From Selaginella tamariscina (lineage: Eukaryota; Streptophyta; Lycopodiopsida; Selaginellales; Selaginellaceae), in contig PUQB01000221.1 in the NCBI GenBank assembly GCA_003024785.1, positions 141,259 through 205,258 of the forward strand: DNA of 64,000 nt, given 5' to 3'. The translations under genes and the position numbers were made by a program. Numbering within the stretch: the stretch's first letter is position 1; every line of letters begins with the position of its first letter. Below, piece after piece: positions 1 to 52,197 of the stretch. The notes under the pieces were generated by a model. That model did no database searches, was not told where the DNA came from, and saw only the letters and a list, made by a program, of their open reading frames with translations.

Positions 1-2660
1 GCCCATGTTTGCAAAGGGCAGCTGGAGAACAATCTCACTCAGCATATCATGTCAAGCAAGCATCGACAAGGTCGAGATGCTGCCCTGGAGCCTGGCCGCC
101 CAAGCAAGAAGCAACGAACAAACGATGCTCCACTTAAAAAACAAGGAACTCTCTTATCTTTTGTCTTGAAAGGTTAGTTTTTATTTTTGGTTTCATTTAT
201 TTTCTTATTCCTATGCTTAAGCTATATTCTAAATATTATTTTCAGGGACTTGGAATGGAGTAGAAGCAGCTCATGCAACACCATCAAATAGCTCATGTAG
301 CCACAGTAAGTGAAAACAATTTACCCACTTTATTTCTGAAAAATATTTTGAGAAAAATAAACATGTGTGTTCATGAGTTCTAGGTTCTAAAAAATATTGT
401 CATGGGTTGTGCAAAAAACATGTATATGAGTTTGTCACTTATGACCTTATGGAGTTTTTGCATGACTCGAAGTGCGCTCAAAGTGGTACCTAGACCCCTA
501 CTACAGAACGACCCTGAAGCTGGAGCATGGCCGAGAGGTGGAGGTTTCAGGCACTTTTTGGCATGATGATTGTCTACGCCCTTGGAATATGGAAATTAGT
601 GCACCAAATGTTCAACCATCCCCAACTTGTCGGACTTTCAGCTAGAGTTGCTAGATCTGCAAAATCTCAGTTCAAATGAGGGGAGCGTGCTGTTGTGCCC
701 GGTATGAGAAACGACTTCATGACAACAGAGGAGTGGCTGCAAAAAAGTCAAGTAGTTAGCTCCTAGAACCGAGATTTGCAAAAGAAAAACTTTGTTCTGC
801 ATGTGAGGAATGTGGCTCTCTCGACTCGCTGCAAGACACTTCGAGAGACTCTACGTGAATCTGTGGTTAGGAAGGAAGTTGGGAAGTTTTGTCATGATAT
901 TATCGAGGCCCACAAGAATGGAAGTTTGATGGAGAGGAGGCCCTCTGGAATCTCATGCTCGATATTGCTCAGAACCTCAACAAAGCAAAGCAGGGATTTA
1001 GATACCACGACACAACGAAGCAGATCTTCCAAGTCATCCGGATATGGGGTGCAACCTGGATGCACAACTTTTTTAGGCTCAATATGAAGGGCCCGGATAT
1101 CAGCTCGACAAAGAGAGCCTCGCTGAAGGCTTCTGATATCGAACCGGTTCAATAATGAGAGCTTTGAAGCCATCGCCAACAACTACAAGTTGAAGATGCA
1201 ACTTGAATTCGGGAGTGTTCCAGTGATGTAGCTAAGGATGAGACTGCGATCAAACAAGCTGTAAGGTGGGACACCAAGCATGACGTTCTACTGGGGTTTT
1301 GCGGGGAAAAGCTGGAAGGTCACTCATGCAAGGAGCAGTTTGAGGTGGAGGCCGGCGATGGAGAGCAGGGCTACTGCAACATTGTTGAGGCTTTTGAGAG
1401 GAATGTGAAGGCCTCATGTGCAAGGGTGTTCATCGTGAACCCTTTGCATTCAAAACTTCCAAATCTTGTTCTGGGAGTTTTACACACTTGCAACAGGTTC
1501 AGATCAGCGATGTTAGAAGACAGTGGGAGCATATTCATATGTTCTAGGAGAAGGGCTTGCGACCAGTTCTTGGGCCTCTCATAGGTCATTCCTCTGATGG
1601 TGATTCCCGCTGCATGTCGTGCATGTTGGAGGACATGCTGTAGGCTTCGAATGTGTACAGGGTGCCGTGGGAAGCCTGGTTCTTATCTGCGGATGTGGGA
1701 GAACATGGTGACTAAGTAACTTCACGATTAAGACTTATTCACAACGGGAAAAAACTTATCAACCCGCTGGATAGAGGGACAAAATTACTCTTTCTCGGAT
1801 AGCAGCTTGCTCATTTGAATGATGTTTGGGTGGTGTTTTCATAGTGATCATGGTCTTCAAGCGTAGGATTGAGGCGAGTTGACAGCCAGAACTGGCACAG
1901 TGCTCAGAGGATTGCGTCGAGAAAGGTTCAAGAGATCCTACAAGCTTTACGAGCTCTAGAGAGCGAGAGACTTGAGAGACCTCTTGGACGAAGGTATATC
2001 TGGATGTGGTTGCCTCCTACATCGATATTTTTCTTTCACATGTGAAAAGCTTGCGAGAGAGGGTCCAATCTGCTGCAAAAGTCTCATTTTTTCTAAGGTA
2101 AATTTGCATTTTGGAAAAATTTTTTAAATTAAATTAATTTTTAATGTATTTTCATGTTATGATGGCTGTGGATAATCCAAAAGAAAAAAGGCAATCTCAA
2201 GCACAACTTTCTGAGCCGGGAGACTTTTCTCAATGTTCAATTGTCTTGCCATTTTGTGTGCTTTTGATAAGGTATATTTTTTAAAAATTAAAAATTGACA
2301 AGTTTTATATTTTTAATATTTAAATTGTGATTTTTCTCAGATACTTTGTGATTTTCATGGCAACCTCCTAGTACTGCTCACAAAGATTGGCTCTGATGTT
2401 TGTGAGAACTTCTTCTCCAAAGTTGGAGGGATGGTTCAGTATGAGCGGTCCTATGATGGCAAAGATATAGTTGACAATGTGGGAGCGATGAACTAGATTG
2501 CTGCGTATGAGGCGGAAGGCGATCTTAGATTCTCAAAGGCTCACTCAAAACAAGAAAATATTTGGAGGAGAGAGATGGAGAAAGTGGTCATAGTTTTACT
2601 ATGACTTGACCCTTTACTTGGAGGTTGATTGTTGTTACCTACTGTACTATGTTGATGGAC
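1..2660 (+). pseudogene. degenerate protein-coding mobile element (transposase-like remnants)
   Basis: Several short collinear coding remnants lie on the + strand, in different frames and with stops. At 4-170 a Cys/His segment with an H-x5-H spacing is followed by a basic stretch, resembling the end of a BED or C2H2 finger. At 880-1155 there is a fragment around FQVIRIWGATWMHNFF. At 1255-1700 a fragment carries RWDTKHDVLLGFCGEKLEGH, VNPLHSKLPNLVLGVLHTCN and, in another frame, VLGPLIGHSSDGDSR. I recall this last block from uncharacterised, repeat-associated plant proteins, but I cannot name the family. An intron-like AT-rich spacer (2100-2340) separates a last piece (2340-2600). The many stops and frame changes indicate a decayed element. 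No terminal repeats were found, and the left end lies outside the window. Confidence 0.45.
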
Positions 2661-2689
2661 ATTAGATTAATGAGAAACAACCCCGCTTA

Positions 2690-4150
2690 GTGCACTTAAG
2701 TGTTTAGGGGTAGGCCGACCGGCTATCTTTAAATGTCGCAAAAAACTCTAAGCGAAGGTAGCACTTACCTTTTAAAAAACCCACCCCCAATTTTGACGTC
2801 CTAGTTAATATGAGTTTGGCATGTTAAATAGGGTTAGGAACACCCCTAGGTTGACCTAACCCACACCTTAAAACCCCCACCCCCTTGGGTAGGGTTTAGG
2901 GGTTAGTGCAAACTCATCTCATTAACTAAGGGGTTGGCATTCCGTACCAGCCCACTTACACATACAGGAAAAGAGGGGGGGGGTCCATCACATAAATAAG
3001 GTAGAGTATGTATGAGTGAGGGTTCCTAGGTTCATGACTGAGTTCGTTACTCTTCTCATGGTGCAAGCTCTAGCTTGTGTCGTCAAGGCACAACCCTTTA
3101 TTGTGCCACCTTAACTTCCATATGACAGGGGTACGTCCCACCTTCGAGTATCTTACCCTTAACGTTAGCAAAATCATGCTTAGGAAGTCTTGTCAGAATG
3201 CACATTCCAAGAGGTAGAGGTTGAGGCTTGTCTCCAACCTCCTCCTCCACATCAAGCCAAGTGTAACACACACGGCCAAGCAAGGCACATCTATGTCCTT
3301 ATCTAATTGTGGGCGTGGGATCTTGTTTGACATGTTCACATTACCTAATTCCTAAGGGTTCACTAAGGGGTTCTAGAGTTGGCATTTAAAAGCCACGTTT
3401 GTGGCACTTGGTGCAACTCTTAAATCTAAGGGCTGACATGATAGACCACATCATGGAAGGTAGTGTCACATGGAGATGTGACACTGGGCTAACGTCATAC
3501 TATACAACGCCCGAGGCACGCCCTTAAGGTTGTGTCATGGGATTGTCACTAAGGGGTTGGATACTCTACTAAACAAGCATGTTTGTACTCGCACTAGGGT
3601 GCTAAGCCTTGGGCATTTTCTCAAGGGAGGTTAGGTCTCGTAACTAGGTGTGCTTTGGCACACTTGGCTAGAGGAGTGTTCTCCTTGGAATCCAAGGTTG
3701 AACAACCTAAACTTGTTAGCATGAGTCCTTTCGTAAAGCACTCGTAAAGTCATGTACTAGGGTTATTCAAACCTAGCCTTAGGGAGTTTGCTTAGCAGAA
3801 CACTCATGTTCGCCAATGGCGCACACTCGTGTCCTCACTAAGACTCCTGGATGAGGGTGATTCCTCAAGGGGTAAGTGACGATGCCTTAACTCTGTCACA
3901 GGGGCATGTGTGAGACAACATCTCCTTTGTGGGGTTAGGGCATGAGCCTGTCTAGGTTTATTGGGATAGAATTCTAAAGTTTACTCGGGATATCCTCTAG
4001 GGTTTGGGAGATGGTCATTCTAAGGGTAGAACTTTAAGTCTTCTGTTTAGCTAGGCATCCGAGTTAGACTCTTTGGGTTATTTTAGAAAATTTAGCATTG
4101 CTCACACCCGGAAGGTCACTTTGCGGCCATGTGTTAACCCTCCGAGTTAA
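2690..4150. other. unidentified repeat-like island without genes
   Basis: This block is visibly less AT-rich than its flanks and has no credible ORF. Short words recur, for example CTAAGGGGTT followed by GG or CT near 2926, 3363 and 3547, and frequent runs of CCC/GGG. The right edge is abrupt, changing to A-rich DNA near 4150. It could be the non-coding part or a terminal repeat of the mobile element to its left. I found no matching second copy, primer-binding site or polypurine tract. Confidence 0.3.
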
Positions 4151-5692
4151 AACACTGACAATATAAAAAGAAATAAGAAATAAATAAATAAAAAGTTCAA
4201 AAGAAACAAGAGAGATCGAAGAAAACTTCTCTCACAAATTGCTTAACTTCTCCAAAACACAACATAAAAACACACAAAAACTCATATAATTCTTTGTATT
4301 TAAGTTTAAGGTATATATACAAAGAAAATATATATTCTCATTATATTTTGATTATTTTATAAACCAATAATAACTTCTCTTGACTATAGAATTAATCACA
4401 CCTATAAATCAATAATAAATTATCCTAATTATAAAATATAAAATTACATTTATACCTCTGAAATTTATCATATTTACATATATACTCCTAAAAAATTTAT
4501 TTACATATATACCCCTTTAAATTATATATATACCCTTAAAAACTTCAATCATAATATTTTAACTTTTAAAATAACAATATTAACTAAAAATTATATTTTA
4601 ATTTATAATAAATTACAAATTAAATAATTGAAGTTTATTAAGTGTTAAATGTCAAAAAATTGTCATAATAAATAATGGAATATTTTAAAAAATAATTATA
4701 TTATATTGTGATATATATGTTTAATAGGTTATATTTTAGACTTAAATATAATAAATATAAATTAATTATAAATTTTTATTGATTTCTTAAAGATGTTTTT
4801 TAATTTTTAATTTTAAAAATTTATGAATTTTTAAATTGAAATTTGAGGGGTATATATGTAAATAAAACTTCTAAAGGTATATATATATAAATATGATAAA
4901 TTTCAAAAATTACCTTATTTATATACCTTAATTACTTTACAATACCATTTTTAAAGATCAAATATACATTCTCAGATTGAAGTCTGTAATTTAAAATTTT
5001 TAAAATCAAAATTTAGAAAGAAATATCCAAAAAAAATTAAAATTAATTATGTAATGCATAAATCTACAGTATATTAATTAAATGCGTGTGTCTATATATA
5101 TATATATATACACATACATATATGGTACTAAAACATTCAATTAAATTATTGTCTTTAAAGAAATTATTTAAAATATAAAGGTTTAGTTTTTTAAAAAGGT
5201 CAGATACGATCCGAACCATTTCTTATCTACAATTATAGTTTGAGTATAAATTTATAATTTACATATCATAGGATATTTATTGTTCATGTATCGAACGAGA
5301 ATATCAATAAGATACATTAATACATGCTCTAATATATTATAACTTATATAATTATAAACAATAACATATGTGTTTGAATTGTATGATAAACATTAGTAAT
5401 CTCCTTCACACACCATATTGACTGACTCCTATCAAAAACATATACAACATACGCAAGTGTACACAGGAAACACATCTGTGTATGTGTACATCCAACATAC
5501 ACATGATGATTAACAAAAATTACAGATATATATTGGCTAATATACACACAGGCACGCGCACACTCCCACATACACATTCATGCATATACATACACAGTAT
5601 AGACCACACAAACACGAGTATATATAATTGAATGCTCTCAAGTTTGAGCCAATTTAATTGATTATATTAACATACCTAATACATTAAGAGCG
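4151..5692. other. AT-rich intergenic region downstream of the SPT6-like gene
   Basis: Strongly AT-rich DNA with short TA runs (5094-5110) and scattered TACA/CACA-rich patches. I see no gene. The end next to 5692 should contain the 3' UTR and polyadenylation region of the minus-strand SPT6-like gene. Confidence 0.5.
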
Positions 5693-8600
5693 TTACCATC
5701 CACTCGATTCTTCAGCCTATTTAATAAATAATAAAATTAGTAAATTAACATTATGACGCTTTTATACCAAACACAACGCATGATCTCTCTCTGCCCCCAT
5801 CTCGTGGAGCTCGTTACTTTATCAAAGTAAAATAATAATATTGCATAATATAACGAAAACCACTATATATTTACATACTATCGGACATAACGATAATAGA
5901 TTGTACGTACATGCACACAAGACACATATACACATAGATCCATACACGAGACGAGAACATAGGCTTGATTATTATAAAAACCAGTATACTAAGAAGAATT
6001 AATTTAAAATGAACGTATATATGTAATTAACTGTATACTCACCTTCATACTTGCATTACCCGCTAAGAGCTCCCCAGCATTTGCATTGCCTGATAAATTC
6101 TGTAAATACCGTCACTCAATCTGTCCGTAATACAAATATATAGAGGTAGTACCTGGTTTTGGGGGCAGTTACGAGTGCCATGCCCTTCTTGTTTACAGAT
6201 ATAACAGATGAGTTTGCGACGTTTGCGCTTGTCATGAGGGCATTCATTGCGCATGTGGCCATCTCCACCACAGAAAGTGCAATCTCCTAACTGCGACGTC
6301 TTGGCGGCTTCTCAGGACACTCTCGTGACATATGTCCCGCTTTACCACATGTATAGCATGTCCCACGCTCTCTTCTTTCTCCACCTCTCCCATTCTGCAT
6401 ACATATATAGTGTCACATAACTACTCCATACACTCATATATGGTTCACATATGCATGTACCTATATAGTATATTCACATGAGTCTGTACACATGTAGGTT
6501 TGTACCAATATATACACATATATATAATGTGTGTACATATGTATGCGTGCAAATATACATGCCTATATGACGTATGTAAAAAAGATACACAAAGATAATT
6601 ACTTGCTGTACACAGTATGTGCGTGTCTGTGGAATATAAGTACACAAGAATATGGATACACACCTGACGGCCAAAGCCACCATCGTTCATGTTATCAGGA
6701 GCTTGAGTCTGCAAATGATTTAAAACAAGTCGTGAGCAACTAATAGTATTTGTGCACACGTTTGTGATATGTTATATTTACATACGGACACATAATACAC
6801 ATATATCTATTTTAACCTGTTCACTAGTAGTTCCCACGGTTGTATCCTTATCGACAGCTTGATTCTGTGATAATATTGTCATCATGATTAGGAGAAGCCG
6901 CTTCGGTAATTTAATTTTGGATTATTCATACTAATTTATAATGACGTAATCTATGAATAAACAAAATTTCATAATGTAAAGTAAAATAGTGCAACCTGAA
7001 GGTTCATATTATAACTAATAAGACGTCAAATGTTATATTGGAAATGGTTGTACCTGTTCTCCCCAGTCACTACCCCATCCGTCGTTACTGGCTGCTTTCT
7101 CGTTAGTTGTATCCTGCAGCTATATCATCATAAGCCATCTCTCTCTCTCTCTCTCCTCTCTCTCTATGCATACATGTGTGCCACGAGTGTGTTATAGCGG
7201 TATAGCAGTAAACACACACACACACACAAACCTTTGGCTCTCCCCACGCCTCATCCTTTGGATTATTGTCCTGTATGGTGGATCATAAAGTTGTAAGGTA
7301 CAAATGTATAATACGGAGTAATGAATGTATTACTAACCATTTGACCCCACCCATCAGCGTTTGCACCATTGTTAGCCACATCCTGCAGAGTACCGGTCAC
7401 ATAGTAAGAACACACACACACACACATATATGAATATGCACAATTGCAGTATTCTCTCACTTACACATGTTTAATCATGTTTCGCATGTCATAATTGTTA
7501 TACAATTACATTAATAACGCCCATTACAAAGAGCTTATTCGCATTGTTAATATCATCCAATGAAAAGATACTTTAAAACTAGTTACTTGCCTTGGAAACT
7601 CCCCAGCCGGAGGTATTCGCATTATCAGTCGCATTATTCCCACCGTCTGCTAATATTTTCACGTGTTCATTTATCAGGATGCATGAGTGCGTATGCATGT
7701 TCAGGAACTAACCGTTCTTGTTTGGGCAATCATGAGACATGTGCCCCTCTAATCCACAAGTATAACAAGAGCTTCTGCGACCACCTATGCATATAACACA
7801 GAGACATATGCATATGTAAATATAGCATACACGTTTGCCATATACGTACCACTACCGCCTTTTCTGGGGCAATCGCGAGACAAATGTCCACTTTCGCCAC
7901 ACAAGTAGCATGTCCCACCTTTACAAAAATAAAAGAAAACCAGCATAAGTTTGTAATTACTATTTATGAATTAAGTTGTGATTAACGAAGGAAATTACAA
8001 AGAGAACTGACTTACCGCCGTCGCTTCCACCGCCCTTATCAGCCTTACTGGGACACTCCCCTGGACCTATGCCCTTCTTCACCGCAAATGAAGCAGGCAC
8101 CACCTTAAATAAGTCACGTAAATCAGCATATACCATAAAAGTACATACAATGTATATAACTTACCACCACCTCTTGCAGGCTTATTTGGGCAGTCTCGTG
8201 ACATGTGCCCCTCCTCACCACACTTAAAGCATGCACGACCTTGACGTAGGCAAGAAAAGAAAAAGAGTGGGCGAAGAGAATCAACAATATACTATATAAC
8301 AGACAAGAGTACATACGATGATCAGCATATAACATTGCAATACATGAGTGTACACAAATATTATGTATATACACAAGAAAAAGGCCTATTATACACGGCC
8401 TCAACGCCCACCCATGATTCTCGTTCATTATTTCATCAAAAAAGAGTTCATGTGCATGTGTTAAGTCTGTTCTCATGTTACACACGAGAAGCTTCTCGTA
8501 CTTATATTTCCTTGTTTTCAATCAGATTTAATGTCTTCAATATTATACTTATTTGTTGTTGGCAACACTATAATGCAACACTTACCACCACCTCTTGGAG

Positions 8601-11600
8601 GCTTATTTGGGCAGTCTCGTGACATATGCCCGTCCTCGCCACACTTGAAGCAACCTTCACGACAAGAAAGTCAATATTACAGCAGGAAGTATATAAAACG
8701 TACTACGTATGTCCCATGCTCTCCTCTCAAGATCTTAAATAAACTCACAAAACAGCGTATAGCAAAACACATACATACATGTACAAAACATAATATGTTT
8801 AGGAAAAAATCTTACCACCCCTTGCAGGTTTATTTGGACAGTCTCGTGACATGTGCCCCTCCTCGCCACACTTGAAGCATGAATTGCCTTTACCATAAAC
8901 GAAGGAGTCAATAATACAAACAGCAGTAGGTAATGTCTGTCTATCTGTTCCTCCCTCCCTCCCTCTCTCGAAATAACACTTACCACCCTTTGCAGACTTA
9001 TTTGGACAGTCTCGTGACATATGCCCCTCTTCGCCACACTTGAAACATGAAGTTCCTTTAGAAAACGCAAAGGAGTCAATAATCCAACAGTTAGTAAATG
9101 TCTGTCTGCCGGTCCCTCTCTCAATCACACTTACCACCTCGCCTCTCTCTTCTCTCATCACCATTTGCCGTCCCCACCCACCACCACCTTAAAATATAAT
9201 AATTAAGTAGGCAATAATTATACTTCATGTACAATTAGTGATACGCATCGGTCCTTTAGCTAGTATACTCACATAGAATAAGGTGTATGACGTCCACACC
9301 ATATACATGTATGTATACGCATATATTAGCTATATTCCTCCGTATATGGATGCATGTATGATGGTTTAATATTACCTTGATTATCCTCACTTGCCCATGC
9401 TCCATTCTTATCGGCCGCATCTACCTTCCATTCATTGACTTTATCATCAGGATCCTCGTTCTGTTTCCAGCCGTCTTCAGTAGCTCCCCATCCAACAGTT
9501 TCCTGTAAAAGCAAGATATAGTAAGTAGTCTGCCTGCACGCGCGCTTGTGCGTGTGTGAGAGAGAAGAGGGAATTGTGAAGCTTAAATAACTACACGAAT
9601 AAACGAACAGATGTATGTGTAGATATCCGCGTGTGCAAATAGCAGATACATATGTATATAGATGTCTAAATAAATTACATGTATATATGGGCATGTGAGT
9701 ATGGCCTACATAAAAGACGTACTTTGTAGCTAAAACGTATTAACAAACAAGCGTATTGTTATACCTGCTACGATGAATTATATTTAATAACATCTATGTG
9801 AAGCTTTTATCTCGATTCGAACATAATATACATCGTTAATATATCCATATGCATTGTACGTATTTTTAAACAGGGTATGCACTTTGATAGATTAAAAAAT
9901 ACCGTATCATTTGCAGCATCCTTATCACCCCATCCATTATTACCATCGTCACCCCATCCATTATTACCATCGTCACCCCATCCGGCATTACCGCCGCCTG
10001 TATCACCACATCCGGTATTATTACTATCACCCCATCCAGTGTTACCACCGTAGTCAGTTTGTTGTGTGCCACCTGCAAAATATTGATAATTATCTAGACG
10101 CAGATAAACACGAAAATAAATGTATAGAAAATATATTATGTGTATAAATGACCTTATGTGGCAGGTATGTACAGTATACTATTGACTGTACATTACCATA
10201 ATACGGTTCTTTTATATTTCAGATCAATGACACAATAGACATTCATTGTCGTGTACAGTTGCATATATTCATGGAAACTATTGATCGTGAGTATTATGCT
10301 ACATCACAGGTATGACACATCTGTACATGCTTGTGCACGCTGCTTGCTACAATGAGCTCAAATATAACGAATATGCATATTCATTACATCGCACCTGTCT
10401 CATTCTCGTTTTTGTTCGGACATTCTCGTATCATATGTCCTTCCTGCCCACAACCACGGCAAGTTCTTGGGCCCCGATTCTCCCCAGGAGGCTTATCGGG
10501 GCAATCTCGGGCAATATGTCCTTCGTTATTGCATATACGGCAAGTTCTCGGGCCTCCTGCACCACCTGCAGTTATAAATGGCAAAATGGCAATGTAAGTA
10601 TATGGTATTATACGCTGCAATAAATATAATAAATTGTTACCGTCGTGCTATTATATAAAGCTTATAAATATTTAGTAGACCAGAAATTAAATTTTGTTAA
10701 GATTAATGCAGCATAAAATATGATAATAATTTAAACGTACTATGTAACAAAACATACATAGTAAAGTTGATGTTAGGTGCTATTATATATACCTCCAGGA
10801 GCCGAGTTCGGACATTCTCGAGCAATATGGCCCTCTTCATTGCATTTATGACAAGCTCGTCCACCAGAGGGCTTCGTCGGGCATTCTCGGGCCATGTGTC
10901 CTTCATCCCCACACAGCCGACACGCTCTTGGACCGCCCCCTATTACCACTGTGATTTATATGAAATAATGATAGTAGGTAGTGAAATAGATATTTCAAGA
11001 CATTAGTAATGATAATATTTAGTCTTTATTTTGTTACTATAATGCTGAATGTGTTATATATATTTTATTTTTATTTTATTTTTATTTTTATTTATTTAAT
11101 TACATTTATTTTATGTATGTATGTATCACAACATTAACCGGTCGTTCTTCTCATGCTATTTATCACATATCACATAACATGGATATAGAATTAGAATTTA
11201 TTACCTCCACCACCAGTGGACTTCTCTGGACAATCTTTTGCAATATGTCCTTCCTTTTGACATTTCCGACATGCTCGTCCACCTGTTATATTTGTAGTTT
11301 ACTTTGAAATTGTGCACTATACAAACTATATAGCGAGGTACAATGATATTAGTGACATATATTAAATGAAATTCTATATAATACGATCCTTGTAATGTCA
11401 TATCATATACAACATACACATACACTTAATATACCTCCAAGACTCTCTTGCTTGATGGAAGCTTCAATGGCCTCGTTAAGGTGCTTCTGAAAAGATGAAA
11501 CCAGCTTCTCAGGGCTATCAAAAATTCTGCCTTTGAACTTGTAGCCTTTGGATGAGATTGTTGCGTATTCGTATGCAGGATTGCCTGTAGAAGACAACAC

Positions 11601-11645
11601 ATATATGTAAATCTAAAAAGATACATAAAATTACATATATATCTA

Positions 11646-11722
<77 letters not shown>

Positions 11723-14700
11723 CGCGCGCGCGCGTGCGTGTGTGTGTTTGACCCAGATATATTTGCATATAATATTTCTACTTTAATTAGACCCACTAAA
11801 CACATTATAGATTGGTATGCATAGGTGGAATATAAACATTAAGTGAACGTGCTTTAACAGAAATAACTGGTACTAGACTGTTTAATCATAAGATGCATAT
11901 ATCCAAAAATAAACGCACAGTAAAAAGCTAGGAAACCTATTTGGAGAAATATAATTTCAAACTATTTTATTCGTGTCCATATAGTTAGATGAGAAGTCTT
12001 ATAGCTGTGCATGCGACTATATATCATTTAAACAATGATAATAATATATATACAGAAATATTACTTATCATATTGCAAAATTATGTATATACGTATATCA
12101 GACCTGTAAGGAAGTAGCAAAAGCTTAAGTCCGCGCGGTCACGGAATATGCACAGGCAGTACGGAATAGTCGCTGGGTTATTTGACTTCTCCGAACGAAG
12201 CCATTCTTCTATCTCTTCGACTGTTCCCTTTTTGTACTTCCGATATTCCATAATCCTTTTTACGTTTTCCACCAAAGAACCGATGAAGGACTGCGATATC
12301 TGTAGATTCATCCCCCTTGTTTACAACACATAGATAAACCATATATATAACAAATGTAGTGAGGATATAACTTCAATCGTATATATCATTAAATATATAT
12401 TCTTTAGAGAATTTAAACATACCTCGTCAAGGTTAGTGAAGTTTCATCCTGAATTCTTAAAAGGCTTCCGATTCGAAGGAGATCTTCCGGAGATTTGGCA
12501 TCTTTTTAGCTTCCATAATATCCAGGTGCAAATTAATAGTATCGGAGGCTTTTATAAGCAGGGACAGAAAAGAAGGCCCTCTGATGCTTGGAAAGACAAT
12601 AGCCTCACCCAATTCTTTCCTCACAAGTTCCTGGCAATAAAAAGAAAGAACGTAAGTTACCATATGTAATATATATGTGTAGGAGGTTCATGCTTATATT
12701 GCCTGTACAATACATATATAAGATGCATTCTCACATTTGAGGTTATATAGATGCAGAACTATGACAAACACATATACATAGAAACGAAGATGAGAATAAT
12801 CAAGTAGTATAAACAAAAATATCTAATTCTTCTGTCAAACTAATCGCGCATACTGCAATAGTCATGTCTACTAAAGTTCGTATAATATAAAGTTCGTAGT
12901 AATAGGAGTGACGTTATATTGACACTAAGATTCTAAATCTTGTATCACCATTACTTAGTGCATCCATCATACTATACGAAATAATTAGGATCCTTACAAT
13001 GTTGAAATTTTAGGTCTAATATCTGAGTTTCATTTTTGGAAGGATTACCTGAGTAGCTTCAGCTCTTGAGATGTTCTTAAACAAGGGATGAACAATTAGC
13101 CGGTTCTTAACAAGCTTCTGCTTCTCACTTTCGATCTTCTTCTGAGTTCTCTCCTTTAAGTAGGATAAATAAGACTTATCCTCTTTGTAATACTCGTCCT
13201 GTTGCTCATATTCTCCCGTGTAGACATCGAAGTCTAAAGACATAAACTCGTTGATCACACCTGTAATATAAATAAGCATACTGATGATAAACATATGAAG
13301 AGATGTTTTTCATATATACATAATATATGCGCATGCATATATATACATGGATTATGTATATCATGTATATACATTAGAGAGACAATAGCATTCTTGCGTA
13401 TGTAAGTACGATTGGCATACCCGTATACCGTATGCATACATACAACCATCACAATACACTTATATATAGATCTTATGTTATTTGATACTATAGACTAATT
13501 ATATCAGGTAATTTCTTTGGATTCATGTTGAACGACACCTTGCTGTTCTCATTGTTGCTGCTCTACGCCTAATGTACATGTGTGTCTAACATGTTACATT
13601 ATATGCATGTGTATGTAACATGCTATACAATTTAAAGAGTAATATTGATACTTAATTCACCTTGGATGGTGCACGCAAGCGAACTGCCTTCACCAAGTTT
13701 TTGTTGTACCTTATCCTTCGGCAATATACCTGAGGCACCTGAACGCAGCAAACGGTATATGTAAATCGGTATACAGACATATTATATAAAAGCCTTTAAA
13801 TTTATATGGTAGAATGCACAGTCATGTACGATTCTGTATATGCATATATGTTTGAAAGACAATCGTAAACTAGAGAAAGCATATGTATAGCCAAGTTTTC
13901 ACGATATATATCATAAATGAATGTGTATACATGTAGATAAAAGTGTAATAGGCAATATAAGGCACGAGCAAATACACTACGTTTATATGTGAGGCCTGTG
14001 TGGGTATAGAACCGTACCTGAATCCAACGCGCACATCCAGCCTCGCTTAAAAAACTTTGTACAGTCACGTTAACAGGCTTGCCAAATTGGTCTCAATAAA
14101 GTAATCTCCTGTAAGCCAGCCCAGAGCCTCCTCGTCGCGTGGAGGTTGAAAATTCGTTCGAATATCTGCGTAGCCTTTTAGCAAGCTGAACTTAATGTCC
14201 TGTAGCGTTTCCACTCCTTTATCTCCTTCAAACACAAGCCCCGTAGCGTATTCCTGGATATATTATCATTAAGGCCTGAGCTGTATGTATTTAGTTAATA
14301 AATAGTATCTCATAGATACACACATATCTTAGAGAGATATGGAATATGCAATATTAACACATAACTTATGCTTTGATGCATATATTATAGAAGCGTCCCT
14401 CCACATATACAAACATGTAACTGTACGCAAGCAAATCATACATATAATATTTTTAACTCCTTCAATGCTTTACCTGAATATCAATCCCGGTCAACACATC
14501 TGGATGCGCACGGACATGCTCAACAGCGGACTCCAAAACAATGCCATCAACACCTTCCTCGCACTGCTTACGCAGAGCATATTCCGCTAGTTTTCTCGCA
14601 ATATCATAAGACTCCGGGTGAATCCTTGTGTCGTCCAAAGGATCCGTTACTTCGTCCACGGCTGAAGCCTGCCCCACTCTCCGTACGCGTAGAAAGGGCG

Positions 14701-17700
14701 CTGAATTCTTAAACACGTTTTCCTTCACTAAATTGCAGCTCAGCAGCATCCTGCGTAGGTCTACGTTGACGTACATATACATGGGTGCATATGTTGCGTA
14801 TGTGGGCATGCAAGGTAAGGATGAATGCAACCACACACACACACACACATATCACAGATAACCATCCATATAGATACAGACATAAACAGACGTATCTATT
14901 ACATGCACGCAAGTATACACCTGACGTAACCAGTTATATAATACAGAAGTAATTGTAGGCAAGACGCAATACTAAACATTATGTTTAATCAAATATTAGG
15001 AACAATAAATACTCACAATCTTGTTAATAAAATGAGTCAGAATACATCTTATGTAACTCGAACACCTTCTAACATTTTCTTAATGGGACTCTTTTAGGGA
15101 AGTAAAAGAAAAAAGAATGTATGTAAATATTACAATGATATATACCATATTATATATAGTATATAATCCAAATTGTATATATTATAACATATACTGAGAG
15201 TAAAGAATACACTAACGATATACCCACGTGTGTATATAACGTTAGATTGCTACCTTCTAGCGCTTAACTTCTGGGCATCTTGAATAGCCCGTTGAAGGAA
15301 CAAGGATTTGCGTTGACCAAGACCTGACACGAATTGCAGTGGTGCCCAATGCCAGCCGTGAACTGCTGCCAGGTTTAAATCAACTCCAACTTGACACGTG
15401 ACACTCACCATCACGTTCTCAAGTGCCTCGTAGAGTTCGTCTTCAGTGACCTGGTTGCAAAAATCGTACATTTCAGCGCACAAAAAGAATTCATACAGCA
15501 GATCTATATGAGCCTATTTCGTGAGAGTACGCTAGAGATTTCATAAACAGGTACAGAAACATATTTATACGTAATGATGTATGTCAGAAAACATATATAC
15601 GCTTGCAAATATTCCGGCTTACAAGGTGTTGAAGAGGGTGCATCTTCAATGATAGAAGTTCCCTCTCAGGACCGCATAAACAAGATAGAACTGCTAGCGG
15701 GTCTGCAGATAGCGACCAAGTGCCATTGCACGGCGAACAAAGACTGCAATACAGATGTACATACAGATATTATCAATATATACATACATGCAGATGTATA
15801 CACACACATATCGACATGCATATGTACCACATATTGTAGTGTAAGTTGATAAATGAAAGAAATATATACGGGGTTAGTACCTGACTCTTTTGGAAGTTGC
15901 ACCGAGGCCATCTGCGAGTTCTCGTACGCAACAGCAATTGACTCGTTCCCGTAAACTACTTCTATACTCGAAGAAGCCTCAGCAATTGCCTGGAAAAGGA
16001 AAAGAAAGGAAAAGATTGTTACTCGCTCCAAGTCATCCAAAAATTTGACTACCTATGTAGATTTATTTATATAAACATAAAACAATAAACACATATATGA
16101 AGTCCCTACGTGTGAGCTACACACAGACATATCAGCAGTACCTCTCGGAGTATTTGATACAGGTATCGGCATTGAGGATTGCTAGCACCAACAACGAATA
16201 TGTCAGGCTTGTGGTCATTTATAAAGTCCATGAGCCGCTTCATCGAATCACATTGCCTCTTTCTATCTTCCTCGGTGAAGGCTTTCGAGCTCAAGTAGCT
16301 TGTGTAAAGTACGTCCTCACTCCTCTTAGACGAGTTCAGCATGACGAATATAGTGGCCTACATTTAATGATTATCGGCAGCAGTTAATATTAGTTATTAA
16401 TGTATATAGATATATTAAACTAATACAATAAGAACTCGTTCCTGTAATACAGTATTATATATATATATGGTACCTGCTTGCTCCAGCAACAAGCTGCAAT
16501 ACGAGGATCTTCATCAGTATCCGGCTTTCGATACGGTGCAGTAGATGCCCAATTCCAAAGCTGCTCAGCACACTTTGATGCTACCCAATCCCGAGCTCTT
16601 GCACCAAGTACAGCCTTAATTTCTTTCTCCATTGTCGGCATAAGAATGTTGCCAAGCACCTCCTGGAGCACTTTCTTCCGCTGTTCAATGGAATAGTTAG
16701 CATATTGATATTATATACTGACCATAATATCCTTGAAACATTTTATGGTTAATGATCGTAATAAATTCGTATACACTAGTTCACCAAGCGGTACACACAC
16801 ACACAATTTGATACACTGTAAGTGCAGAGTTCTCAATATGCTGCTATCGTGCATATTTATAGTACACGGATCACGTTAAATAAAATATATGTTCAGAGAT
16901 ATACAATATGCTGTATACAAAAGAGCTAATAGCATGCAAATACTACAATTGCAGTATATATAAGTTAGACGCTGATAAAACTCTCACAATGAATAAATAA
17001 TCAACCAAATAGACAAATGAACTTGTATAAGACGCCATTTGCATTTAGGCATATATATATACACACCATCTATTCATATGTGTCTATATATATCTGTTTG
17101 TATATCTACTAAAATTATATCATATAAATGCTTGCATTTACATACAAGGATACCTGTTCATTCCATGAGACTGAGAAGGGACTAAACCATTGCTTAGATA
17201 AGCAGCCTCATATTCGTGCTTTAGGCTCTGATCAAACTCTTCAGGCAAGTCAAGTGTAGCAACCAAAAGGCCTTCGTTCTCAGCCTGTTCAATAAGCAGC
17301 CATTGCTCGTTGTCAAACTTCGTCAGTGGCTTCCGTGCTAACCATTTAACGCTTGCGTACGGATGCAGGAGATCAATAACTGTGCCCCCTTTCAACGTTG
17401 GTTTTGTGCTCACTGTAGCATTTTCCTGGCACATAAATCGGAGATGTGCTCGAACTGACGGTTCCATGCTTATCTCAACAGCAGCCTGAAACAAAGGAGT
17501 ACTCTTAATTTATATTTGTATATATATACTACGCAGGCATATAAATATGTTATACACGCATAATATGGTGCTGCATGTATGTCTACGTCCATACACATGA
17601 TATATTTCCATATCTACATATACATGTACCCCTATACATACATACATATGTTTATGCAAGAAAGAAGATACGTATGTACATGTATAGATACGCCACATTA

Positions 17701-17722
17701 GCTTAGCATGCCAGGTATACTT

Positions 17723-17773
<51 letters not shown>

Positions 17774-18585
17774 GGAATATTTTAAAAGAAAATCGTCTAA
17801 GCACTACGTATGGGATAGCCAAACTATCCATTGAGACGTCGCATGCATGAAATTAATATGTACCAGCTCTAATGTGTGAGACGGAACCAAAGAAAGAAAA
17901 CACTTACTATATGTCTTGCGGCAGCTAAAACAGACTGTGGAGTCTTGCGCGTTCCACCCACGACAGGAGCCGCTATCTCCTCGGGATAGACATCTCCATC
18001 ACCAACCTCATGTTTCTGAAGACAAATTCATTAGAAGATACGTTCATGTATGTATATCTACCAACAATACCAGATAAAATAATCCATGTTACAAATATGT
18101 ACATAACATAATGCATAAGGACGCGCGTGCATACATGTTATATGATAGCGTACTGTATGTACCTTGCAAGAGCTGAGTAAGTTCTCGGCAAACTGTCTCG
18201 AGTTCAAACCCAAACGCTTGCAAATGTCCTGCAAGCCTGCTTCTTGCTGTGCATTATGAAGCGAGCGTCGCTTAGGACGTTTAAAAGTCTCGGGTGCATC
18301 AGCAGCTTCGACTGTGAAACGGAAACTGAAGGTCGCATCGACGTCCTTGATGGCCTGTTCTGATCGCGCGTCAGCTAGGTGGTTCGAAAGATCCTGTAAC
18401 ATATTCTTCTGGTCTTCATTTGCTTTCTCTGCCTGCTTATCCAATGCGGCTTGTACCTCCTTCTTCCGCTTTTCCATGAGCAGCCATCTCTTGTCCCACT
18501 GTTCAATAGCCCACAGGTCCTGTTAAAGAAGACAATTTAGTAATTAGATTTTGTATATATACGTGTTTTTCTGTCTGTCTGTTTG

Positions 18586-18648
<63 letters not shown>

Positions 18649-18823
18649 ATATATATATAATATTATATAAAACTGTGAGCTTTTAGCTGGTATATAAGAT
18701 ACGTCATATGGACATGGTATTCTATCTAATGACATGCAATCACTTAAGGATATATATCACGCAGTGTATATATGCATATATAGAGAAAGGTATCACACGT
18801 TACATATTGTAATTTATGTAAGG

Positions 18824-18888
<65 letters not shown>

Positions 18889-20331
18889 GACATACAACTT
18901 GTCCTAGCTAACAGTTCATGCGGGGTACTATAAATAGTTTTGCTATTATTACAAGGATTGTATATTTAAATATGTGCAACCGATCCTGTATTGTAAATCT
19001 GTGGATCTGTATACAAAGTAGTTGTATCATATATGTATGCTCTAAAGCAACGCACGTACACTGATATCACCTTGAATTGACGAAGCTTTGGGTCATCATC
19101 TCCATCTTTCTCAATAAAATGCAGGCATTGCTCCTTACGATACGAGCCGATGAATGGAACCTATAAAACCATAGAAAATAAACACCCGTATACACCCAGC
19201 CTGTTTAGGTACATACATATAAGTCCACACACAGATGCATATGTTCCGTTAGCTGGCAGATCAGTTAATAATTTTCCTGACAGTATTACCTCAACTCTCT
19301 CTTTGTGCAAAAGAGATAAGACATTTCTGATTTGCTGTACAACGTTTTCTTTTTCCTCCTCCAATTTGTCACAACCAAGTTTCGTGTAGATCCACTGTGC
19401 CTCCTCGGCAGCGTCACTATCATCAGGAGCCCCACCTATTTTTCCCAAAAAATCTGTAAACATATACGTTAATATTTGTACATAGAAAAACTATGTTAGC
19501 TTGGTTTATCTATCTATCTATCTATCTATATATTCCGCCCTTTAGCGAGCACAACGCATGCATGTACTACGTGAAAATAAAGAGAACAAACCTGCATCCT
19601 TTCCGGCACGTCAACCTCATTTATCTTTCTCTCCTCTTCGTTGAATAAATCATCGATAAGGCTGACCAAATCAACTTCCTCAAGTTTCTTCTGCTTGATT
19701 CTGCAATAAAACGTTGAAACATCAGGCAAAAACAACGCCACAAATTCTAAATATATTCATTAATAAAATAATAATCTAGCACGTATCAATGTACCACCTG
19801 GGCGACTGGCCAGCGGAGGACTCTTCAGCTTTACATTTCCTTTTCCTGCCAGAAGATGAAGAGGCCTCTTTTGATCCTACATTTTGGAAAAAGGATTAGT
19901 ACCCTGTGTTGTGTAGCATGACAAAACTCACCCGATACCGATGCCTTCGATGAAGACGCCTTCGACCGCTTTACCTGAAAAAGAAAACTTCTCTATAGAA
20001 TTTCGAAGCCAGAAGCAAAAGCAAACTTACAGATTTTCTAGGCCGAGAGCTTGAACCTGTTTCCTTGGAAAGACCTTTCTTTTTTCCACCGCTTTTGTTT
20101 TTAACTGTAAGAGAACAATCTTAAGACCAAACAAACTCGGAGGGTCAACATACCTGTAGCCACTTCTTCCTCGACCTCCTCTTCCATATCACCGGACTCA
20201 TCATCGGAAACTGGAAAAAGACCAGAATTTCTAAGTAAAAATCGAGTTTTTCGCATGACCAAGCAAGAAAACAAGTACATTTTTCAATGAATTTCTAACA
20301 GAACGCTCAAACCTGGAGCGGCGCCTCCCAT
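5693..20331 (-). CDS. SPT6L: SPT6-like transcription elongation factor with CCHC-knuckle and GW/WG tail
   Basis: Histone chaperone and elongation factor that travels with RNA polymerase II in the nucleus. About 46 exons were read. The start at 20331 opens an acidic N-terminus (SDDESGDMEEE, exon 20154-20210). Then come the SPT6 core (EEAQWIYTKLG 19290-19453; VPFIGSYRKEQ 19071-19160; FKRPKRRSL 18163-18519), the YqgF/HhH region (VGVDLNLAAVHGWHWAPLQF 15254-15450; LDDTRIHPESY 14474-14750), an S1 domain (about 13509-14253), IVHPLFKNISRAEA (13049-13260) and tandem SH2 (12423-12630, 12104-12299, 11435-11584). A long tail follows with 15 CCHC knuckles and GW/WG motifs, ending SSGW-stop (exon 5693-5716). 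One intron (7591-7646 exon end) has a GC donor. Single-base slips occur near 19453, 17180, 15680, 14070, 12470-12540, 8058-8061 and 6320. The exon near 13509-13568 is uncertain. Family identity is secure; the tail is unlike SPT6L proteins I know. Confidence 0.93.
6153..11282 (-). other. zinc-knuckle / GW-WG region of the SPT6-like protein
   Basis: Fifteen C-x2-C-x4-H-x4-C knuckles are encoded on consecutive exons. K1 is at 11205-11282, K2-K3 at 10793-10939 and K4-K5 at 10395-10565. K6 is at 8984-9055, K7 8816-8887, K8 8586-8654, K9 8165-8239, K10 8016-8103, K11 7850-7918 and K12 7713-7784. K13-K15 share one exon, 6153-6394. Typical cores are CFKCGEEGHMSRDC and CRICNNEGHIARDC. Between them lie acidic, Gly/Asn/Asp-rich exons with Trp next to Gly: 9903-10072 (four WGD units), 9376-9502, 9135-9187, 7591-7646, 7338-7382, 7232-7270 and 7054-7113. 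Knuckles of this class bind single-stranded RNA or DNA; GW/WG motifs dock Argonaute proteins. Both statements are family knowledge, and their combined use here is inference. Confidence 0.85.
8816..9140 (-). repeat. tandemly duplicated exon-intron units in the knuckle array
   Basis: Exons K6 and K7 are nearly identical, and so is the intronic DNA beside them. Both copies carry AAGGAGTCAATAAT, then an AACAGYAGTARRTAATGTCTGTCTGYC-like tract, a CCCTC-rich run and the same acceptor-to-donor layout (8888-8983 versus 9056-9134). Exons K8 and K9 match K6/K7 closely, with more diverged introns. The knuckle cluster therefore grew by duplication of whole exon-plus-intron units. Confidence 0.7.
11640..11735. 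repeat. compound microsatellite (TCTA/TA/TG/CG)
   Basis: A run of ATCT tetranucleotides passes into (TA)n, (TG)n and a short CG alternation. It lies in an intron of the SPT6-like gene between the SH2 exons at 11435-11584 and 12104-12299. Confidence 0.9.
17728..17767. repeat. (CA)n microsatellite
   Basis: About 20 CA units in an intron of the SPT6-like gene. Confidence 0.95.
18589..18890. repeat. paired (CT)n and (CT)n(CA)n microsatellites
   Basis: Two pyrimidine arrays, 18589-18647 and 18823-18890 (the second ending in CA units), lie in the large intron between exons 19071-19160 and 18163-18519 of the SPT6-like gene. Read on the gene's own strand they are (AG)n. Confidence 0.95.
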
Positions 20332-50698: not shown

Positions 50699-50847
50699 AG
50701 TCTTTATAGAAAAGAAGTAGAATGAAAAAGCAAGAGACACTGAGGCTCCCACTTGCGGGATACTCAATTGGCTTTCCTTCCCTTACAATCTAAATCTCAC
50801 ATATCCCATAGAATCCCATAGAATCCCACATTTCAGTCTATGTGAAA

Positions 50848-52197
50848 ATGCGGCTGCTGTTCTTATGTTTTCTATTACTACTTACTACCGTGGTTGTCTC
50901 AGTTGTGGAAGCGAGGACAATTGAAGTACAGAGAAGACTTGAGGAGGCCTCTATAAGGAGCTTATATGATGCCTATATAGCGCTTCAGGCTTGGAAGAAA
51001 GCGATCACAAAGGACCCGCTGAATATCACAGGTAACTGGGTAGGTGACGATGTGTGTAGCTATAGAGGAGTATTCTGTTCCCCGGCTCCGGACGGTTCGT
51101 GTGAGAGGGTCGTGACTGGTATAGACCTCAACCACGGCTACTTGTCCGGGACTCTACCGGACGAGCTCGGACTGCTGACGTACCTCGTGTTGTTCCATAT
51201 CAACACGAACTTCTTCAGAGGAAAGATACCGGAGACGTTCTGTCGGCTCACACATCTGTTCGAGCTCGACCTCAGTAATAACAGATTCACCGGTACGTTT
51301 CCGACCGTCACACTGAAGCTGCCAAGCTTGAAGTACCTCGACGTGAGGTTCAACCTCTTCCAGGGACCGATCCCTCCTAAGGTTTTCCAGATAGGACTCG
51401 ATGCGGTTTCCTGAACAACAACAGGTTTGAGTGTAGTACGCCGGAGACGATAGTGGACTCGACGGCCTCGGTTCTTGTCCTTGCCAATAACATGATACAG
51501 GGGACGTTACCGGCTGAGATGGGGAAGCTGAATGGGACTCTGGAGGAGATTATCTTATCAGGGAACATGTTTACGGGGTGCATACCGGACTCATCGGTAA
51601 TCTTACTCAGCTAACCGTTCTCGACCTGAGTGATAATGAGCTCGGCGGATACATACCGGACTCGTTTCATATATGACGTCACTCGAGCAGCTCAACCTGG
51701 CGGATAACTTGCTGTCCGGACCGGTACCGGAGGGGATATGCGAGCTTCCTCACCTGAAGAATCTGACGCTGGTAGGGAACTTCCTCACACATGTGACACA
51801 ACAGGCATAGCGTTACCATCGAGGGGAGTCAGTTTCGACGACGCAGAGAACTGCATTCCTTATCAGCCGAACCAGCGGCCTACCGTACAGTGTGCAGATT
51901 TCTATTTACAACCGGTGAGTTGCTTCCCAACACCTCTACCGCCGCTTGCTCCGCCGGTATTACCACCACCTCCTCCCCATCGCCACCGCCACCGCCACCG
52001 CCTCCACCGTATGTTTACAAGTCTCCCCACCTCCACCGGTATACACTTACAGATCTCCTCCTCCACCTCCACACGTTTATAACTCTCCTCCTCCGCCTCC
52101 ACCACCGGTGTACGTTTACAAGTCTCCTACACCTCCACCTCCACCGCCGTCTGTATTTATATATGCTTCTCCACCACCACCACCACCACAAAACTGA
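50848..52197 (+). CDS. LRX: leucine-rich repeat extensin (LRX) cell-wall protein, frame broken
   Basis: LRX proteins are secreted, bind RALF peptides through the LRR domain and are anchored in the wall by an extensin tail. Single exon. The ATG at 50848 starts a signal peptide (RLLFLCFLLLLTTVVVSVVEA). LRX hallmarks follow: DAYIALQAWKKAI, NWVGDDVCSYRGVFC, VVTGIDLNHGYLSGTLP, LVLFHINTNFFRGKIP, LFELDLSNNRFTGTFP, SLKYLDVRFNLFQG, then in other frames LNNNRFECSTPETI, GNLTQLTVLDLSDNELGG, TSLEQLNLADNLLSGPVPE and CIPYQPNQRPTVQCADFYLQ. The tail has PPPPVYVYKSP-type extensin repeats ending PPPPPPQN-stop. At least six one-base losses (near 51404, 51590, 51672, 51790, 51975 and 52028) interrupt the frame. 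A GTG six bases upstream of the ATG is not a plant start. Confidence 0.9.

Follow-up and report, generated by a model that had tools for sequence, protein, structure and literature searches.

A predicted divergent SPT6 paralogue of Selaginella tamariscina with a C-terminal tail of CCHC zinc knuckles and GW/WG motifs

Introduction

Plant SPT6L (Arabidopsis AT1G65440), which is the conserved plant SPT6, joins an SPT6 core to a C-terminal GW/WG tail resembling an AGO hook (PMC10991848, PMC11127964), and the passages on SPT6L in these two sources mention no knuckles. The hook-bearing GW tail is described for streptophyte SPT6L, which is held to be the oldest plant polymerase-associated protein with an Argonaute hook (PMC10991848); in the tests made in Arabidopsis, the tail was dispensable for both development and RdDM (PMC11127964). 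SPT5L/KTF1 is likewise an elongation factor paralogue that carries an AGO hook and stands beside a general copy, but its core family is SPT5, and it is described as confined to angiosperms (PMC10991848). In Tetrahymena, the GW-repeat protein CnjBp associates with the Argonaute Twi1p (PMC2636879, PMC5666084). The gene described below shares GW repeats with CnjBp and core and tail type with SPT6L.

CnjBp also has zinc knuckles, and to our knowledge it lacks an SPT6 core; nor do we know of knuckles in SPT5L/KTF1. Tandem CCHC knuckles with the GHMSRDCP-type spacing (zf-CCHC) seen in our gene are found in CNBP, GIS2 and the plant CCHC array proteins, which we take to be the families most like it in this respect. 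CNBP/GIS2-type proteins are small and stand-alone, whereas the knuckles reported here are exons of an SPT6 gene.

Gene organization and zinc knuckles

In the window, by which we mean the whole 64,000-nucleotide stretch of S. tamariscina DNA that was analysed, a minus-strand SPT6 gene runs from an ATG at 20331 to a TAA at 5693, and its exons continue beyond those for the tandem SH2 domains (Table 1). Exon-by-exon reading gives a tail of 21 exons, from 11282 down to 5693, encoding in order K1–5, a GW block, K6–12, a second GW block, K13–15 and AEESSGW-stop. The 15 CCHC knuckles thus fall into groups of five, seven and three with GW/WG blocks between them, bearing out an earlier note on this DNA that had described an SPT6 carrying both knuckles and GW motifs in this arrangement. 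In the window copy, splice sites are intact for all 21 tail exons, and 19 are open and phase-consistent; the two exceptions carry frame breaks, one inside K10 and one separating K13 from K14, and beyond each of them the phase was reset by hand.

Table 1. Features of the knuckle SPT6 gene in the window
Feature	Position	Strand	Remarks
SPT6 body	11434..20331	-	23 exons read by hand, ATG 20331 to end of tandem SH2 (11434, phase 1); certain exon boundaries uncertain
Knuckle exon K1	11205..11282	-	Phase 1-1, splice AG/GT; zf-CCHC
Knuckle exon K2-K3	10793..10948	-	Phase 1-1; zf-CCHC
Knuckle exon K4-K5	10395..10565	-	Phase 1-1; zf-CCHC
GW exon 1	9903..10072	-	Four GWG in repeats
GW exon 2	9376..9502	-	VGWG, DGWK, EWK, AWA
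Knuckle exon K6	8984..9055	-	Phase 1-1; tandem exon-plus-intron duplication; constraint test
Knuckle exon K7	8816..8887	-	Exon reading; tandem duplication; constraint test
Knuckle exon K8	8586..8654	-	Exon reading; tandem duplication; constraint test
Knuckle exon K9	8165..8239	-	Exon reading; tandem duplication; constraint test
Knuckle exon K10	8016..8103	-	Frame break in window copy; open in C463 copy
Knuckle exon K11	7850..7918	-	Phase 1-1; zf-CCHC
Knuckle exon K12	7713..7784	-	Phase 1-1; zf-CCHC
GW exon 3	7591..7646	-	Exon reading; GC-AG intron follows
GW exon 4	7338..7382	-	Exon reading
GW exon 5	7232..7270	-	AWG
GW exon 6	7054..7113	-	DGWGSDWG
Linker exon 7	6817..6864	-	Without tryptophan
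Linker exon 8	6664..6708	-	Without tryptophan
Knuckle exon K13-K15	6153..6394	-	K13/K14 frame break in both copies; K15 zf-CCHC
Linker exon	6043..6099	-	Exon reading
Last exon, AEESSGW-stop	5693..5716	-	Exon reading

Fourteen of the knuckles fit CX2CX3GHX4C unbroken, the fifteenth being K10, which is open in a second copy of the gene (contig C463). Pfam zf-CCHC matched K1–5 (E = 2.2e-34), K6–9 (1.9e-35), K11–12 (1.1e-15) and K14–15 (3.2e-8); of the 13 knuckles submitted to this search, all but K10 and K13, 12 pass singly and K14 fails. With its CX2CX4HX4C repeats and zf-CCHC matches, the tail holds a CCHC zinc knuckle array. K6–K9 were built by tandem exon-plus-intron duplication (116-nt units, 63–84% alike), and because the differences among these four duplicated exons comprise 7 silent codon states and a single replacement (p = 3.6e-5 relative to the fraction of silent sites), these 4 of the 15 knuckles are selected at the protein level. 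CNBP-type CCHC knuckles have here multiplied as phase 1-1 exons were duplicated. There is no support for their recent acquisition from a different knuckle gene in the genome, the closest other knuckles, on C358, being 39% identical (best 150 of 1453 candidates scored), and a retroelement Gag origin is unlikely because the knuckles are spliced, phase 1-1 and within the SPT6 gene. Our search of an open-access library turned up no paper describing an SPT6 with knuckles. The tail may be described as a variant on the known SPT6L-type GW tail, with putative AGO and RNA binding.

SPT6 core and paralogues

The earlier assignment of the body to SPT6 stands: HTH_44, YqgF, HHH_7, HHH_9 and SH2_2 occur in that order, all above Pfam cut-offs, and the body matches PDB structures of SPT6 (best 5.9e-92), while the Pfam search of the body gave no match to an S1 domain. 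The first SH2 domain lacks the beta-B5 phosphate-binding arginine (IVFPSIRG, as compared to IIRPSSKG in human and in the conserved Selaginella copy described below). The equivalent residue in yeast Spt6, equated with this position by motif, is R1282, which has a phosphate-binding role, and the tandem SH2 has another phosphate pocket, with yeast K1355 and K1435 (PMC5599234). Since the first pocket is without its arginine, the classical recruitment to Pol II may be less strong for the knuckle SPT6, which weakens the coupling to Pol II elongation proposed in the earlier note; the SH2 divergence could also reflect relaxed constraint.

Two other kinds of SPT6 gene are present in the assembly: C948 carries a conserved SPT6L whose GW tail is plain (locus L045), and C545/C749 a copy having just one GW. 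The C948 gene has the same core and a conserved SH2 pocket, but its 79-residue tail has no knuckles; 6 of its 8 tryptophans lie beside glycine, and it ends in SW-stop after a hand-placed phase-1 intron. A search with the flank of this C948 gene returned 63–97% matches on other contigs, the flank itself not being among the matches listed, and nothing is inferred from it. Of these SPT6 genes, the knuckle copy has diverged furthest: its core is 30.3% identical to human, as compared to 35.5% (C948) and 31.6% (C545), and 49% identical to that of C948. A tree of five sequences, one of them an unverified Arabidopsis sequence, places it beside human and outside C948, C545 and Arabidopsis (73% bootstrap, long branches). 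We read the knuckle SPT6 (contigs C529 and C463) as a probable divergent extra paralogue of S. tamariscina. It can be called an SPT6L in the sense of an SPT6 with a GW tail, but probably not in the sense of the plant's ordinary SPT6L. The link of C545/C749 to the genome is looser than that of the others and consists of similar composition and similar simple repeats.

Interpretation of the tail

The best explanation, to which we give slightly less than an even chance, is that this divergent SPT6 paralogue, with its knuckle and GW tail, serves as a transcript-bound candidate Argonaute platform. Its core would continue to act as elongation factor and histone chaperone on the polymerase during transcription, and nascent single-stranded RNA would be gripped by the knuckles as a multivalent arm. 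The acidic GW/WG blocks that separate the knuckle groups would supply docking peptides for Argonaute, so that small-RNA complexes would be concentrated on the transcript. Retention of the conserved SPT6L would leave the knuckle copy free to specialise. Argonaute genes are present in the genome (50 Piwi-domain matches over 15 contigs, with PAZ, ArgoL1, ArgoL2 and Mid in one).

A possible but less likely alternative keeps the same gene and protein but sees in the tail general co-transcriptional RNA handling with Pol II (annealing, export or unfolding of G-rich RNA, as in CNBP/GIS2), the GW motifs being a silent inherited remnant of the SPT6L hook. The dispensability of the Arabidopsis tail (PMC11127964) favours it and weakens the earlier Argonaute-recruitment reading. 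Also in its favour, the knuckles tested are constrained, and the number of GW repeats varies between copies, GW exon 1 differing from its C463 counterpart by an in-frame 24-nt unit plus 3 nt. Between the two copies, tail exons differ at 17 of 1793 aligned sites and introns at 45 of 3834; 8 of the exon substitutions lie away from gaps. Four of them change an amino acid and are confined to GW or linker exons, which again favours this alternative; the other four read as silent, of which one (in K10) is discounted as lying beyond the frame break. The substitutions are too few to inform on the tail as a whole, for which the two-copy comparison shows no constraint. Against a silent remnant, the GW/WG motifs are undecayed: the tail after the tandem SH2 is GW/WG-rich, with 12 of its 14 tryptophans adjoining glycine, a number reached once in 10000 shuffled tails (mean 4.76), as compared to 6 of 8 in the C948 tail. 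In the second GW block, just 4 of the 6 exons contain tryptophan, and the GW piece submitted to Pfam matched no family. A further GW-like stretch at ∼9186–9130 is incompatible with the splice phase and was excluded from the tail.

That the gene is a decaying duplicate seems improbable. Frame breaks affect 7 of 44 exons in the window copy (2 in the tail and 5 of the 23 in the body) and 18 of 44 in the collinear C463 copy, and the fast-evolving core and lost SH2 arginine would also suit a pseudogene. However, for 40 of the 44 exons one copy or both are open; the remaining four (E15, E18, E21 and K13-15) are broken in both, but differently, the K13-15 breaks lying at about the same place. Because the second copy is broken mostly at other sites and so many exons are open in one copy or the other, we read the breaks as probable assembly errors; since K13-15 is broken in both, neither assembled copy has K14, K15 and the final two exons in frame with what precedes them. 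Decay is also hard to reconcile with the strong silent excess in K6–K9 and the intact tail splice sites of the window copy.

It is very improbable that the knuckle and GW exons belong to a downstream gene of their own, driven by a separate promoter. Knuckle arrays do occur as separate open frames elsewhere in the genome, but we reject this reading because just 151 bp separate the last SH2 exon, which exits in phase 1, from K1, which enters in phase 1; moreover, K1 contains no ATG, and the C948 copy also has a GW tail after its SH2 domains. The claim that all these exons form one gene is thereby upheld. Contamination by another organism's DNA, suspected from the composition of the window (35% GC, as compared to 48% at the C948 SPT6 locus) and from a 77% GC contig in the assembly, is hardly credible and was rejected because interspersed repeats from the window's first 4.4 kb occur on 35 contigs besides C529 and C463 and also on C948 (79–85%), tying these contigs to one genome, and 3 of the 9 stretches of C948 that were examined resemble the window in composition.

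Returning to the Argonaute platform, its fullest form, which we consider unlikely as a whole, is that Selaginella SPT6 split as angiosperm SPT5 did, into a general SPT6L and a silencing-dedicated SPT6 whose SH2 domains would have been released from Pol II linker phosphates and whose tail would both capture nascent RNA, through 15 knuckles, and dock Argonaute, through the GW motifs interleaved with them. If true, this would be a transcription-coupled small-RNA platform in a non-angiosperm lineage, SPT5L being described as restricted to angiosperms. A plant that keeps a plain SPT6L together with a second SPT6 bearing an elaborated hook and an RNA-binding-type array would be a natural experiment on the function of the hook, and the tail provides a clean example of exon duplication adding a multivalent tail to a core transcription factor.

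Architecture of the tail

We read the SPT6-like gene exon by exon on the minus strand from its ATG at 20331 to its stop at 5693, and found that the tail 3′ of the tandem SH2 domain comprises 21 exons. An earlier note had claimed a tail order of five knuckles, a GW block, seven knuckles, a second GW block, three knuckles and a terminal SSGW-stop, which this reading matches throughout.

Tail features of the SPT6-like gene (K, CCHC zinc knuckle)
Feature	Coordinates	Strand	Basis
K1 to K5	11282-10395	minus	exon reading
Two GW exons	10072-9376	minus	exon reading
K6 to K12	9055-7713	minus	exon reading
Six exons, GW/WG in 4/6	7646-6664	minus	exon reading
K13 to K15	6394-6153	minus	exon reading
Linker exon	between K13-15 exon and last exon	minus	exon reading
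Last exon, AEESSGW-stop	5716-5693	minus	exon reading

Phase 1 is shared by the end of the last SH2 exon (11434) and the start of K1 (11282), with 151 bases between them; no ATG was found in K1, and the GW tail of the SPT6L gene on contig C948 likewise lies directly 3′ of its SH2 domains. These three observations bear out the proposal that SH2 domains and knuckles belong to a single gene. All nine unbroken knuckle exons 5′ of K13 are entered and left in phase 1, and the K13-15 exon is entered in phase 0. A motif count gives 14 intact CX2CX3GHX4C units in the tail; the K10 unit is divided by a frame break. The four knuckle pieces submitted to Pfam all matched zf-CCHC (E values 1.9e-35 to 3.2e-8), while no family was matched by the GW piece or the three single SPT6 exons run together with them. 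As single stretches, 12 of the 13 knuckles submitted passed alone (K14 failed; K10 and K13 were left out). Glycine adjoins 12 of the 14 tail tryptophans, compared to a shuffled-tail mean of 4.76, and 12 was reached once in 10000 shuffles. Separately, several other contigs have stretches that are 75-85% alike to a piece of the K8-K9 intron (8414-8564), perhaps a short transposon remnant.

Second copy and frame breaks

A second copy on contig C463 is collinear with the window over gene and flanks at 94-98% identity. At 9903-10072, one in-frame GW repeat unit of 24 nt and a further 3 nt distinguish the two copies, a repeat-number polymorphism within the GW block. In the assembled window copy the reading frame is interrupted in two of the 21 tail exons (in K10, and in K13-15 between the K13 and K14 knuckles) and in five of the 23 body exons; the C463 copy is broken in 6 and 12, respectively. 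E15, E18, E21 and K13-15 are broken in both, so that neither assembled copy keeps K14, K15 or the last two exons in frame; we restored no frame in our reading. Because 40 of the 44 exons are open in at least one copy, and the copies differ from each other at the remaining four, we tentatively read the breaks as errors left in a long-read assembly whose alleles had not been merged.

Coding constraint and growth of the knuckle array

Between the copies, tail exons show 17 differences in 1793 aligned sites and tail introns 45 in 3834, with 21 in 3727 and 39 in 4962 for body exons and introns; on these counts the copies are too close to decide whether the tail is protein-coding. Away from gaps, the tail exons carry eight substitutions: four alter the encoded residue and are confined to GW or linker exons, and four read as silent, although the one in K10 sits beyond the frame break and is not to be counted. 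Across a 17-codon core of the duplicated exons K6-K9, there are seven silent codon states and one replacement (p 3.6e-5 against the silent-site fraction); at the sequence level, constraint as protein is evident for these four knuckles tested. The 116-nt units of exon and intron flank are 63-84% alike, and the array therefore grew by tandem exon duplication. An open frame elsewhere in the assembly (L041:1501-1767) also has near-identical tandem knuckles, with a KQCFNCGADDHFIRDCPKLKDK-like unit occurring four times.

Three SPT6 loci in the assembly

An SPT6-core search of the assembly (300.7 Mb, 1391 contigs) retrieved the window contig (C529) and C463, one further locus on C948, and two loci, on C545 and C749, that are 98.4% alike across 4.3 kb. 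The C948 gene is the conserved SPT6L: aligned to human SPT6, its tandem SH2 reaches 138 bits, compared to 64 bits for the window gene, and its tail is GW-rich and knuckle-free, ending in SW-stop. The C545/C749 gene ends in a tail in which Y, D and R abound and GW occurs once; this may be a natural loss of the hook. Core identity is 63% between C948 and C545, 49% between C948 and the window gene and 44% between C545 and the window gene; to human it is 35.5%, 31.6% and 30.3% for C948, C545 and the window gene, respectively. In a five-sequence tree the window gene groups with human, separate from C948, C545 and Arabidopsis (bootstrap 73%), a weak placement with long branches and an approximate Arabidopsis sequence.

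The first 4.4 kb of the window contain interspersed repeats that recur on 35 contigs other than C529 and C463 and, at 79-85%, on C948, which also carries a 96% match to a repeat near the C463 copy; these common repeats place the window contig and C948 in one genome. The ties of C545 and C749 to it are limited to similar simple repeats and a similar composition. Two interspersed repeats within 1-4400, at 1-2590 and 2587-3842, are abundant; the C463 copy is longer by ∼6 kb between 1741 and 1770, where an insertion specific to one allele is the probable cause.

Other loci

A plus-strand leucine-rich-repeat open frame with LRRNT_2 (50812-51411) resembles an LRR-extensin. Elsewhere in the assembly, rbcL (L021:1090-2469) lies on a 692-kb contig in a stretch of 54% GC, and departs from other plants at conserved sites, with residues such as H in place of Y, P in place of L and S in place of F. 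These residues resemble C-to-U RNA editing sites left unedited, as in unedited Selaginella plastomes, and are in line with a Selaginella genome. Contig C908 (L022; 77% GC, with a RuBisCO-large-like match) is likely a bacterial contaminant.

Proposed working

Beyond what we regard as established, namely the architecture, the constraint on the four tested knuckles and the setting among paralogues, we suggest that the SPT6 core would travel with a polymerase, nascent RNA would be held by the knuckles and Argonaute would dock on the GW/WG blocks. The assembly encodes Argonautes: Piwi-domain matches number 50, across 15 contigs, and PAZ, ArgoL1, ArgoL2 and Mid are matched in one. There are also 17 matches on 11 contigs to DUF3223, a domain of the Pol V largest subunit.

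The first SH2 domain reads IIRPSSKG in human SPT6 and the C948 gene, and IVFPSIRG in the window gene. In PMC5599234, yeast R1282, which we equate by motif with the human and C948 arginine, lies in the pocket taking the Pol II linker phosphate; R1282H binds the doubly phosphorylated linker 12-fold more weakly yet alone gives no phenotype, and the other SH2 pocket, for pS1493, matters more. Because the window gene lacks this arginine, its recruitment to Pol II may be weaker, though not necessarily lost.

The main rival is that the hook is silent. In Arabidopsis, an SPT6L lacking the GW/WG repeat still rescues development as well as SPT6L occupancy and DNA methylation (PMC11127964), and the hook of the window gene may therefore be silent too.

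SPT6L with an AGO-hook is described as ancestral to streptophytes, being already present in Mesostigma and Chlorokybus (PMC10991848). The words CCHC and knuckle are absent from that paper's main text, and among the open-access matches listed, no title or abstract start describes an SPT6 with zinc knuckles.
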